Positions 9,559-45,833 of a DNA stretch of 45,833 bases are shown piece after piece (the first letter of the stretch is position 1; each line of letters starts with the position of its first letter). The notes under the pieces are model-generated. The model was given only the letters and a program-made list of their open reading frames with translations. It did no database searches and was not told the origin of the DNA. The stretch is from Candidatus Mediterraneibacter pullicola (GTDB lineage: Bacteria > Bacillota > Clostridia > Lachnospirales > Lachnospiraceae), in contig DXAK01000002.1 of NCBI GenBank assembly GCA_019117065.1, positions 1 to 45,833 of the forward strand, read 5' to 3'. The position numbers and the translations under genes were made by a program.

Positions 9559-10233
9559 TTAATTCTGCTCCAGACTCTCCACCCAAGCTACCACATCTTC
9601 ATCAGAAACACTAGACCGGAATCTCTCGCCTTCGTACCAATCGCCGGTTCCAGCCAGCTCCGCCAGCAGATCACTGCTGTCTCCCATACCGGAAGAAGCA
9701 GAAGTTGCAAATGTGATCACTGTCTTCCCTGTGAAATCATTTGCCTCTACAAAGCTGTCCATCGGCCATGCGGCGATGCCCCACCAGATCGGATACCCGA
9801 TAAAGACTGTATCATAGGAATCCCAATTCTCGACCTCCGTTGAAACAAGTTCCACATCTCTTAAGCTTTCGTCTTCATGCTCTCTCGACACTCTGCTGTC
9901 ATCGTCCGTCCAGTCCAGATCTCCGTCCGTATACGGTTCTGCCGGCTCTACTTCAAAGAGGTCGCCGCCTGTGGCGTCTGCAATAGAATTCGCTACTTTC
10001 TCGGTGTTTCCTGTTGCGGAATAGTAAACAACCAGTACATTGCCCGAACCCGAAGCAGAATCCGCGGTATCTCCCGCGCCGCTCTGATCATCCGCACTGC
10101 TGCCCTGATCTTCTGTTTGTGCACGGTCCAACGCGCCCTCATCCTGTGTGTCCACATTAGCGCCGCATCCTGCTAGAAGACCAACCGCTGTTATACCGGC
10201 AAGTATCATAGAAAATAATTTCTTTGCTTTCAT
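9559..10233 (-). CDS. Flavodoxin-domain lipoprotein
   Basis: About 224 residues from the ATG at 10233. The first 23 residues are a lipoprotein signal (lysines, a hydrophobic stretch and the lipobox LLAGC), followed by an acidic Ser/Gly/Asp linker. A flavodoxin fold begins near residue 67 (VLVVYYSATGNTEKVANSIA, the FMN phosphate loop) and continues with the FIGYPIWWGIAAWPMDSF segment typical of flavodoxin_4 proteins. It should sit on the outer face of the membrane and carry electrons or reduce quinones extracellularly. The decayed DUF4405 cytochrome gene lies just upstream, the kind of partner expected for a surface flavoprotein, which makes loss of that gene notable. Confidence 0.85.
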   Translation of the reverse strand: MKAKKLFSMILAGITAVGLLAGCGANVDTQDEGALDRAQTEDQGSSADDQSGAGDTADSASGSGNVLVVYYSATGNTEKVANSIADATGGDLFEVEPAEPYTDGDLDWTDDDSRVSREHEDESLRDVELVSTEVENWDSYDTVFIGYPIWWGIAAWPMDSFVEANDFTGKTVITFATSASSGMGDSSDLLAELAGTGDWYEGERFRSSVSDEDVVAWVESLEQN

Positions 10234-43584: not shown

Positions 43585-43611
43585 ATATCAAATGTGCTAA
43601 GAGGTGCCGCC

Positions 43612-44004
43612 TTGAAATCATTTCCCAATCCCCTCACCCCCTCGGAAGAAAAGTATTACATCCAGAAGTACACAGAGGGAGACCTGGAGGCAAAGCACAT
43701 CCTTATTGAACGCAATCTGCGGCTCGTGGCCCACGTTATTAAAAAATATCAGAATCTGGAAGAAGATCCCGAAGATCTGATCTCCATCGGAACCATCGGG
43801 CTTATTAAAGCAGTTGTCACCTTTAACCCCGACAAAGGCAACCGCCTTGCCGCCTACGCTTCCCGGTGTGTGGAAAAAGCGACCCCCTCGGTTTGGCTCC
43901 ATTTTGCAATAAAGCCGGGAATCAGAATCCTTTTTCTGATTCATGGAAAATATGGAAGTCTTTTCAAAACCTGCATATCCTGTACCATTCTCACAATCAC
44001 ATAA
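43612..44004 (+). CDS. sigK: Sigma-K, N-terminal part, interrupted after codon 88
   Basis: From a TTG at 43612, 6 bases after AGAGGTG, the frame reads (M)KSFPNPLTPSEEKYYIQKY and then NLRLVAHVIKKYQNLEEDPE, DLISIGTIGLIKAV and NRLAAYASRCVE: region 2 of sporulation sigma-K. The conserved part ends at Glu88 (43873-43875). The family continues Asn-Glu-Ile-Leu-Met, but here it is Lys-Ala-Thr-Pro and unrelated residues to a stop at 44004. The -10-binding and DNA-melting parts of region 2 are present, and regions 3 and 4 are missing. The break lies within the GAAAATGA codons where the skin element of Bacillus subtilis is recalled to interrupt the same gene. The 3' half is not in the window. Confidence 0.85.
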   Translation: MKSFPNPLTPSEEKYYIQKYTEGDLEAKHILIERNLRLVAHVIKKYQNLEEDPEDLISIGTIGLIKAVVTFNPDKGNRLAAYASRCVEKATPSVWLHFAIKPGIRILFLIHGKYGSLFKTCISCTILTIT

Positions 44005-44081
44005 ATACATATGCCGTCATCTATATCCATTCTGCATTATTCCGTCTGCCCTCCCGATGCACAATAGCAGAACGTCATAAC

Positions 44082-44495
44082 CTGCTCTACACATCCCCAA
44101 ATCAGTTACATACAGTACCGGAAAAGATACGCTATTATCGTCATAAACATCTGTTGCATCAACGGGATGTTGCAAATGCCCTGAATATAGACCGGACAGT
44201 ATATCAAGCCTGTGAATACGATACCCATGACTACTATCCTGTCGAATTACTGGAAAAACTGGCTGTTTTCTATCATATCTCCGCTGAAAATCTGATGGAT
44301 GAATATCATCTCTTCCTATACCATGATCCCGGTACACAAATAAAGCAATTCCGCAAACAACATGGTTATACACAGGAACAACTGGCAGATAAACTCGGCG
44401 TATGGAAACAATCCGTCCGTGCATGGGAAAAGGGATACAAGAAAATATCAAAAGAACACTACAACAGATTCATGGAACTGAAGAAAAATGCATAG
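44082..44495 (+). CDS. Double helix-turn-helix XRE regulator without a clear start
   Basis: The frame is open from the sigK junction but has no ATG or GTG in the likely coding part; the annotated start is the CTG of LLYTSPNQLHTVPEKI. It holds two XRE-type helix-turn-helices: KIRYYRHKHLLHQRDVANAL followed by NIDRTVYQACEY, and QIKQFRKQHGYTQEQLADKL followed by GVWKQSVRAWEKGY. Probably a repressor of the element. Either it uses a rare start, or it is 5'-truncated, or its true start is supplied when the element circularises. Start confidence is low; the two domains are clear. Confidence 0.6.
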   Translation: MLYTSPNQLHTVPEKIRYYRHKHLLHQRDVANALNIDRTVYQACEYDTHDYYPVELLEKLAVFYHISAENLMDEYHLFLYHDPGTQIKQFRKQHGYTQEQLADKLGVWKQSVRAWEKGYKKISKEHYNRFMELKKNA

Positions 44496-44540
44496 TTTCT
44501 TCTATTATATAAAGACTTCGATTTTGTCTTTATTTCGTTT

Positions 44541-44615
44541 GTGAACGTTTAAGCAAAGCCGTGCCCGCTAAACGTGTCAGAACGTCTCAGAAAAGCGTTC
44601 AGCGTTCCACAGCGG
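44541..44615. repeat. Cluster of GAACG/CGTTC repeats with an ACGTTTA inverted repeat
   Basis: ACGTTTA (44545-44551) and TAAACGT (44569-44575) are inverted; GTCAGAACGTCTCAGA and AGCGTTCAGCGTTC follow. Such clusters occur at replication or transfer origins and integrase arm sites. It lies between the two operon ends of the element. Confidence 0.4.
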
Positions 44616-44632
44616 TATCAGACAAGCAATAA

Positions 44633-44657
44633 GGGCAGCCACCAGAAATGACTGCCC
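44633..44657 (-). terminator. Hairpin after the small-gene operon of the element
   Basis: On the minus strand GGGCAG (44657-44652) pairs with CTGCCC (44638-44633), followed by TTATTGCTT. Lies 10 bases after the 55-residue gene. Confidence 0.5.
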
Positions 44658-44666
44658 CATTCTCAT

Positions 44667-44834
44667 TTATTTCAACGCTTCTCGAATACCTTGTATTATG
44701 TTTATCTTTTCTTCAACCGGAATGTCCAGCTTACTCAGGTAGGAATATATGTATTCCCCATGCAGAACAGCAACCTGTTCTTTCAGGTTTTCGACAGCGT
44801 GCTCATCTTTTGGATAATGCACGACTACATTCAT
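44667..44834 (-). CDS. 55-residue element protein
   Basis: Reads MNVVVHYPKDEHAVENLKEQ and then VAVLHGEYIYSYLSKLDIPV, EEKINIIQGIREALK, from an ATG at 44834 with AGGCAGGT just upstream. Two amphipathic helices by composition; soluble and acidic. Follows the 64-residue gene by 34 bases in the same direction. I do not recognise it; small helical proteins of this sort are common next to Rep genes. Confidence 0.65.
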   Translation of the reverse strand: MNVVVHYPKDEHAVENLKEQVAVLHGEYIYSYLSKLDIPVEEKINIIQGIREALK

Positions 44835-44868
44835 ATATACCTGCCTCTCTTTTTCTTACATATATGAC

Positions 44869-45063
44869 CTACTGCTTGTCTGATATGACAGACCCCCATA
44901 TACGTTCTAACTCCTGACGCACAGCACTTAAAAGATTCCATCCGTTCTGAGTTAATACCCCGGAGTTTTTCAAGTCTATCTGCAACTGATTCAACACTGC
45001 TATTGCACTATCGAGTTCCATCACAAGTTCTTCTCTGCTCAACGGCTGTAACTGTATCTTCAT
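44869..45063 (-). CDS. 64-residue element protein
   Basis: Reads MKIQLQPLSREELVMELDSA and then IAVLNQLQIDLKNSGVLTQN, GWNLLSAVRQELERIWGSVI, SDKQ. Taken from the ATG at 45063 (AGGTGA 6 bases upstream); another ATG lies 2 codons before. All-helical, with possible coiled-coil in the first half. Lies 66 bases after the Rep gene. Family not recognised. Confidence 0.65.
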   Translation of the reverse strand: MKIQLQPLSREELVMELDSAIAVLNQLQIDLKNSGVLTQNGWNLLSAVRQELERIWGSVISDKQ

Positions 45064-45129
45064 AATCATTCACCTGCTTTCAAATTACATTTCAAAAATA
45101 TAAGAATGATATATGAAGAACAGCAACAT

Positions 45130-45833
45130 TCATTTTCCATTTCTTCTGTCATTGTACTGCATAATATAGATCCTGTTGACCTCAATATTCTCGTTTTCTA
45201 ATAATACTGAATAACCCTTTTCATACACTTTATTATGTCCTGAGACCAATTTTTCTACCTCATCGTAGGTCATATGATAGAGAGGCGGTATAAGAATACC
45301 CCGTGATTTCGTATAGAGTTTTTTATGTTTCTGATAGTATTGTATACGAGACGCTTTCCTGCCCTTACCATTTCCTAACAGTACGGTAAAATAGGCGCCG
45401 ATATTATCATTTCCTGTAGTACGCCTCACTTTCGTAAATCCATGAGACCATATATCCTGTACCGACCGATTATCTATAAACAATGCATCAGTGTTTTTGT
45501 TTTTCACCAATACATGAATATGCCATCTGCCCTTACAGTCAGGCTCATACATAACAATATATTCCATAGAGCCATAATGATATTTTATCCGCTTCCAGAA
45601 GTTTTTAAAATCATTCGAGACAATACCACGGTCAGTCATATGGAGATTACTGCCATAAGTAAGTATGATATGGAGTTCATTACTGCTCCCCGTGAAATTG
45701 TAATTGATAATACGTCTGAGACGCTCAAACGCCCTGTTCCAGTTGTATCTGCCTGAGCTGCTAATACCACCCCTGCCTGTTTTTGATTGAAAGCGAATAA
45801 TTTCTCCCGTTTCAGCATCTAAATACCTTGTCT
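45130..45833 (-). CDS. HUH-type rolling-circle replication protein (5' end outside window)
   Basis: At least 233 residues. The frame is open through the window edge, continuing before the internal Met as LDAETGEIIRFQSKTGRGGI and ending LHIILTYGSNLHMTDRG. Motif 1 is IILTYG, the HUH motif is WHIHVLV, and a candidate catalytic Tyr lies in NIGAYFTVLLG, with the typical RIQYYQKHKKLYTKSRGI segment after it. This matches REP_ORF2/G2P-type replication initiators of phage and rolling-circle elements, which nick one strand at an origin. Its presence implies that the sigK element replicates, or nicks itself for transfer, as a circle. Read from the strand towards sigK. Confidence 0.8.
   Translation of the reverse strand, partial: TRYLDAETGEIIRFQSKTGRGGISSSGRYNWNRAFERLRRIINYNFTGSSNELHIILTYGSNLHMTDRGIVSNDFKNFWKRIKYHYGSMEYIVMYEPDCKGRWHIHVLVKNKNTDALFIDNRSVQDIWSHGFTKVRRTTGNDNIGAYFTVLLGNGKGRKASRIQYYQKHKKLYTKSRGILIPPLYHMTYDEVEKLVSGHNKVYEKGYSVLLENENIEVNRIYIMQYNDRRNGK

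Follow-up and report, generated by a model that had tools for sequence, protein, structure and literature searches.

Skin elements, which interrupt the sporulation gene sigK, have so far been treated mainly as defective prophages. According to the accessible part of PMC5025042, the C. difficile skin element lies in sigK with its serine recombinase CD1231 immediately upstream of the sigK 3′ half; CD1231 has a constitutive sigma-A promoter, and the recombination directionality factor (RDF) CD1234, not the recombinase, is mother-cell-specific. The literature matches listed, as far as their text is accessible, comprise prophage-like sigK elements and one non-prophage system, gin, in gerE. Here we analysed a 45,833-nucleotide stretch of Candidatus Mediterraneibacter pullicola DNA (the window), which is the entire contig C37 of a 2.25 Mb genome in 49 contigs (in labels, G stands for genomes, C for contigs and L for loci; the window genome is G000). 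The contig end falls inside an element inserted in sigK, presumably at the same small AATGA neighbourhood that is split by the B. subtilis skin, whose gene layout differs. The insertion is probably an integrated plasmid-like element at the sigK skin site, with a predicted attP inside a recombinase–helix-turn-helix (HTH) open reading frame (ORF) that integration splits, and with predicted excision and replication in the mother cell.

A reading made from the DNA letters alone (the sequence-only reading) had claimed that the sigK frame leaves its family after a Cys-Val-Glu triplet, within a GAAAA run. This is indeed the case, with the Glu codon GAA at 43873–43875, and foreign DNA follows from 43878 onward. 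The left junction contains the following features.

43594..43877, + strand: sigK 5′ half, the first 94 codons plus the attL core; after excision it would continue at C39:1236 onward.
43876..43877, + strand: central AA dinucleotide of attL, the predicted crossover; the element begins at 43878.
43878..43897, + strand: right arm of attP, AGCGACCCCCTCGGTTTGGC, with its partner arm at the C39 end.
43875..44495, + strand: orphan XRE segment with a linker of about 21 residues, a three-strand sheet and two HTH domains (Pfam HTH_3; AlphaFold2 (AF2) model).

The 5′ half starts at GTG 43594 (or TTG 43612), and the NCBIfam SigK models TIGR02846/PRK05803 match its residues 8–94. The sigK 3′ half that had been expected beyond the contig end was found at C39:1237–1584, directly 3′ of a serine recombinase, and contig C39 also contains the right junction. 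Joined, the window 5′ half and the C39 3′ half score 302.4 against a SigK equivalog cut-off of 298.65, and 221–229 on two SigE models. Both halves flank the insertion, on two contigs in the window genome and on one contig in genome G040, and the sigma frame stays open through the computed empty-site joint in 13/13 elements. The observation of an interrupted sigK is confirmed.

An assembly chimera at 43878 would fit a contig that stops within the element. It is very unlikely, to the point of being negligible, since a near-identical element end meets differently spelled sigK 5′ halves in G040, G035 and G023, and since the two element ends of the window genome, from two contigs, together make the attP dyad; the matching right end likewise speaks against a chimera. 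An intact sigK elsewhere in the genome had been named as grounds for giving up the interruption, and contig C13 (L003, 1–7443; 7.4 kb) does carry an uninterrupted, end-truncated sigK, 86% identical over the sigK stretch. This contig duplicates the conserved codY-topA-dprA-comM-sigK block (genes named by eye). Because the second copies of codY, topA, dprA and comM stand in the same order, we read C13 as probably a contaminating contig from a relative in this genome bin, and rejected its sigK as a refutation.

Comparison of 13 elements reduced the overlap of left and right ends to AA; the clearest case is L122, whose joined host has the sequence GATAACGAA. In the window attP dyad, centred on this AA, 12 of 20 positions pair, a value reached by 12 of 5000 shuffles. 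Across the 13 elements, 10 to 17 of 20 positions pair, and 0 to 113 of 5000 shuffles equal the observed value; attB pairing was 4 to 9 of 14 in the three cases tested.

The main feature of the locus, which the sequence-only reading overlooked, is that attP lies inside a continuous recombinase–XRE reading frame. At the predicted circle junction the recombinase frame continues into XRE in 14/14 elements having both ends, and by computation attP is in each of them within one open frame that integration cuts. The 14 comprise 13 elements (eight on a single contig, five pairing two contigs) and G181 (two contigs). They form five clusters at 50% XRE identity, one element lies in a CspBA-like gene, and the frames are inherited, so these are not 14 independent events. 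Of 16 right ends, 15 have a recombinase frame that stays open as far as the junction, and the contig of the sixteenth (G032) is too short. The frame stops at once on a host TGA in 13 elements, after 15 codons in L122 and after three in L125; on C39, where the recombinase lacks its N-terminus, it reads ..GCK and then a TGA supplied by sigK.

At left ends, the XRE frame is −1 relative to sigK in 32/34 cases and +1 in two. One of the two is L125, where the recombinase is also +1. In this element the recombinase tail has gained one base and the XRE N-terminus has lost one. When the element is integrated the two indels are about 9 kb apart and in separate frames; across attP the frame is restored with no stop between them. 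Such a pair is most readily accounted for by reading of the joined ORF, and no other single element argues for it as strongly. Integration is predicted to split one recombinase–HTH gene, so that the recombinase made from the circle should differ from the one made after integration. The XRE match itself was borne out (Pfam HTH_3, E=1.4e-14); its role need not be confined to that of a separate regulator, as the segment may belong to the recombinase gene of the circle.

The gene content was read from G040, in which the element is whole between both sigK halves and measures 7002 bases (7.0 kb), with eight ORFs: a recombinase, an HUH Rep, two XRE genes, small ORFs and cargo. The element thus has a large serine recombinase of its own beside the junction, full-length in G040 with three Pfam domains and preceded by a sigma-A-like TTGCAA-17-TATAGT (read by eye). 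The G040 recombinase and Rep are 95% identical to those of the window genome over the parts present. If the layout is that of G040, about 3.8 kb of the element middle is absent from the window genome's assembly. M. massiliensis holds a whole related element of 6.9 kb. No phage structural gene was found among the eight ORFs of the G040 copy, which is not prophage-like in content, and no relaxase among the ORFs of this 7.0 kb copy, which does not mark it as an integrative mobilizable element. A search for RNA families found none. Beyond the XRE segment, the window holds three further element genes.

44667..44834, − strand: orf55, a conserved 55-aa protein, candidate directionality factor.
44869..45069, − strand: orf66, a small conserved protein, 97% and 65% identical in G040 and G035, no Pfam family.
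45130..45831, − strand: HUH rolling-circle Rep (REP_ORF2-G2P, PF23343), its 5′ end cut by the contig end.

The HUH Rep proposed earlier matched PF23343 with 51.3 bits against a cut-off of 27.8. By tblastn it matched 32 plasmid records; in 11 the match spans 80% or more of Rep, and the five listed first are of 1.5–2.5 kb. Its LTY, WHIH and downstream Tyr motifs align with those of pEXIG02, pYA01-2 and pBAW301, with WHHH in pEXIG02 and WHMH in pBAW301 as variants of the HUH motif; an HUH Rep with conserved motifs is thus a feature that the element shares with REP_ORF2-G2P rolling-circle plasmids. Because these motifs align with the plasmid relatives, we infer that the excised element replicates by a rolling-circle route. 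Rep also has distant relatives in three phage records and two PHROGs; an inovirus or phage reading was rejected, as the whole G040 element yielded no morphogenesis gene. Of the earlier interpretation, the insertion at the skin position, the rolling-circle-type Rep and, in G040, the lack of phage structural genes stand, and precise excision with replication stays a prediction.

Cargo at L060:2395–4636 encodes two proteins: one of 149 aa, which has no Pfam match and recurs in distant elements, and one of 592 aa with a YARHG domain at its C-terminus. In M. massiliensis, a Phd/ParE-type toxin–antitoxin pair adjoins the recombinase (L061:2875–3445), and a pair 90–92% identical stands beside a related recombinase in G048 (L096).

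Judged by the anatomy of both ends, the AA of GAAAATGAA in sigK is where a large serine recombinase would have put the circle. As long as the element is circular, one ORF running through attP would comprise the recombinase and, as its C-terminal part, the two-HTH portion of XRE; integration cuts this ORF. In the integrated state the frames show the recombinase ending at a stop contributed by sigK and the HTH part stranded downstream of the sigK 5′ half; expression of the two parts is predicted. The short recombinase and a directionality factor, for which orf55 is the candidate, may then excise the element in the mother cell and restore sigK; excision would recreate the long recombinase–HTH gene in the circle. 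Rep could then copy the circle by the rolling-circle route, as its plasmid relatives suggest, and the spore chromosome would retain the integrated copy.

Several observations weigh against this account. Two exact patterns found no circle or attP in 58 genus genomes (0/58), and a viral contig collection held no circular form (0). The window genome's assembly lacks the N-terminus of the recombinase and the middle of the element; 6/14 both-end pairs join two contigs by inference; and in G011, which has two sigK 3′ halves, the one with a recombinase (C195) was chosen over C206. In L112 and L122 a host base contributes to a stop at the left-junction codon. A scan for SigE-type promoters gave four sites with the −10 pattern in the G040 copy against about one expected (own arithmetic), and the SigE-like boxes before the Rep operon are suggestive and not significant. 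Within the XRE part, 17/34 left ends have ATG, GTG or TTG within the first 10 codons, and the window XRE also has a possible separate start, TTG 43893, so XRE might be made alone. Proportions of synonymous (pS) and nonsynonymous (pN) change leave its first codons in doubt as well: in the small elements codons 0–7 showed no synonymous change and a pN of 0.09, and in a larger kind of element codons 7–36 are weakly constrained in pairs with G011 (pS 0.35–0.37, pN 0.15–0.18), the rest of XRE being under stronger constraint in these pairs.

The points on XRE starts bear on an explanation in which the sigK element is mobile, has Rep and recombinase, and XRE is simply a regulator in its own right, translated from a start near the junction or in sigK, the in-frame junction being a by-product of compact att arms. 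The early starts just counted agree with it, as does the onset of constraint: pooled pN/pS over four small elements was about 0.14 for codons 7–36, 0.08 for codons 36–93 and 0.22 for codons 93–204, so purifying selection in XRE is seen from codon 7. We nevertheless find this explanation doubtful. The recombinase frame enters XRE in every one of the 14 elements, a stop codon stands directly before the junction in 16/34 hosts, and the compensating indels of L125 would be left unexplained. In the AF2 model (29 sequences, mean pLDDT, the predicted local distance difference test, 84.8), residues 1–21 are of low confidence and are followed by a three-strand sheet (25–50) and the helices of two HTH domains. 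In L113, L120, L132 and L135 there is no ATG, GTG or TTG before codon index 36–49, beyond the first sheet strand, nor one upstream of the junction in open frame; a complete sheet there would therefore need read-through from the recombinase. A fold search with the XRE model ranked SinR, DdrO and like HTH repressors at the top, none at E <= 0.001.

A different role for the HTH part is that of a directionality factor fused to the recombinase, with the long form locked to excision and keeping sigK repaired in the mother cell, and integration carried out by another product. Engineered integrase–RDF fusions are said to promote attL × attR recombination. That such fusions exist is reported in the accessible part of PMC5737554. 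A newly arrived circle encodes the long form yet must integrate, and orf55 appears by its size to be the better RDF candidate, which makes the fused-RDF explanation unlikely. The orf55 protein, put forward as an RDF candidate for its conservation, is 100% identical in G040 and G035 and 34–51% identical in six other genus sigK elements, and has relatives at 26–100% in 18/40 XRE loci. It matched no curated family above cut-off, and a search against phages gave no match.

The insertion could also be dead or stuck, in a host that no longer sporulates and with the element decaying. The genome of 2.25 Mb in 49 contigs, in which the inventory of sporulation genes is one of sigma factors only, and the lack of an observed circle would fit this. 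We judge it improbable, given the sigma frame kept open through the joint in all 13 elements, the purifying selection in XRE and recombinase, and the full-length three-domain recombinase of G040. The reading we prefer is that of a mobile, plasmid-like element whose recombinase gene is split by its own integration.

We then considered how widely such elements occur. Among 58 genus genomes, 47 matched sigK over its full length, three of them with a single TGA inside that match, and 11 held halves only; two of the 47, G053 and G052, each hold an extra sigK 3′ half. Extra 3′ halves, either next to the main copy or away from it, are at L072 (G011:C206), L077 (G052:C15) and L076 (G053:C84), and that of G011:C206 is preceded by a terminator-like stretch in place of a recombinase. 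Rep matched at 1e-5 in 10/58 genus genomes, with five strong matches (E below 1e-60), all at sigK, and six weaker matches in five genomes (E from 2e-23 to 4e-9). The weaker Reps were rejected as sigK elements at the three sites checked (L086–L088), with no sigK half nearby. At 1e-10, Rep matched in 4/397 family genomes, the window genome included.

Two cargo kinds share the sigK site. The small kind with the G2P Rep is present in G000, G040, G023, G035 and G019, and more distantly in L113, L120, L122 and L125. The larger kind was annotated in the 16.3 kb element of G005, where RepA_N is accompanied by an actin-like protein, an IstB/DnaC-like ATPase, a MobA/MobL relaxase and sugar phosphotransferase system cargo, and where the G2P Rep was not detected; RepA_N and MobA/MobL proteins closely related to these occur in L134 and L139. 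Recombinase, XRE and orf55 are common to both kinds.

The XRE alignment, used to scan genome contigs, picked out 40 loci, 34 of which abut a sigK-like 5′ half. The others are L117 at a reversed sigK 3′ half, one locus at ytvI, two at other genes and two that start at a contig edge. At L111 (about 10001) the XRE end is in a ytvI-like gene, which is partial and scores 102 bits on TIGR02872 against a cut-off of 198, and in G181 (L104/L155) the element is in a cspBA-like germination protease gene, whose 3′ part scored 258.6 bits against a whole-protein cut-off of 1250. L133 and L142 lie in genes without certain identity. Both the ytvI-like and the cspBA-like target are spore genes. At L117 (about 9605–9971) the XRE end on the reversed sigK 3′ half may reflect an inversion or another core. 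In metagenome-assembled genomes of Faecalibacterium, a genus usually not regarded as spore-forming, L130, L136 and L144 have the XRE segment against a sigK-like 5′ half of putative sigma identity. Close to the XRE locus of L136 is an SMC-like gene of 1118 aa, which we take to resemble Wadjet.

A wider proposal, to which we give an even chance, is that in a family of integrating plasmids the recombinase gene doubles as a position sensor, with attP placed between its catalytic part and a C-terminal two-HTH part. The circle would encode a long form and the integrated element a short form, usually ended by the AATGA of sigK, and the same module in sigK, ytvI and a cspBA-like gene would tie the direction of recombination and rolling-circle or RepA_N replication to sporulation. 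Plasmid-like elements of two replication types here share one integration module aimed at sporulation genes in gut Clostridia, and because the shared module targets such genes, plasmid upkeep and spore development may be coupled. A split recombinase would offer a serine recombinase a simple way, open to testing, of sensing whether it is integrated, and is a possible natural counterpart of engineered integrase fusions.

Insertion in sigK is a known skin-type arrangement. Among the literature matches listed, in accessible text that mostly leaves out subscription papers, neither a sigK element of plasmid type nor a recombinase frame spanning attP was found, which is weak evidence of absence. Recombinase relatives on plasmids (eight records) were considered as well; the two opened, from C. 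difficile and R. albus, contain a stand-alone recombinase gene with no XRE fusion and were set aside. The window element resembles the C. difficile skin in its sigK site, a recombinase adjoining the sigK 3′ half and a sigma-A(-like) recombinase promoter (in G040, by eye). By its description in the accessible part of PMC5025042, the C. difficile skin differs in being prophage-like with 19 genes, no plasmid Rep or recombinase–XRE frame being mentioned there. The B. subtilis skin (SpoIVCA) is likewise prophage-like according to that part of PMC5025042. Like the window element, gin in Bacillus cereus gerE is a non-prophage element that splits a sporulation gene and has a serine recombinase and a second factor, GirX; it differs in its 28.6 kb, three recombinases and target, and replication is nowhere mentioned in the main text (PMC5595907). 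The cryptic rolling-circle plasmids pEXIG02, pBAW301 and pYA01-2 have a related HUH Rep with the same motifs, and unlike the element they are free plasmids of 1.5–1.8 kb with no recombinase annotated. In mycobacteriophage BPs, attP reportedly lies inside the repressor gene and the enzyme is a tyrosine integrase. As in the window element, integration there changes the protein encoded at attP (PMC4557955, accessible part); the gene split in BPs is the repressor, whereas in the window element it is the recombinase itself.
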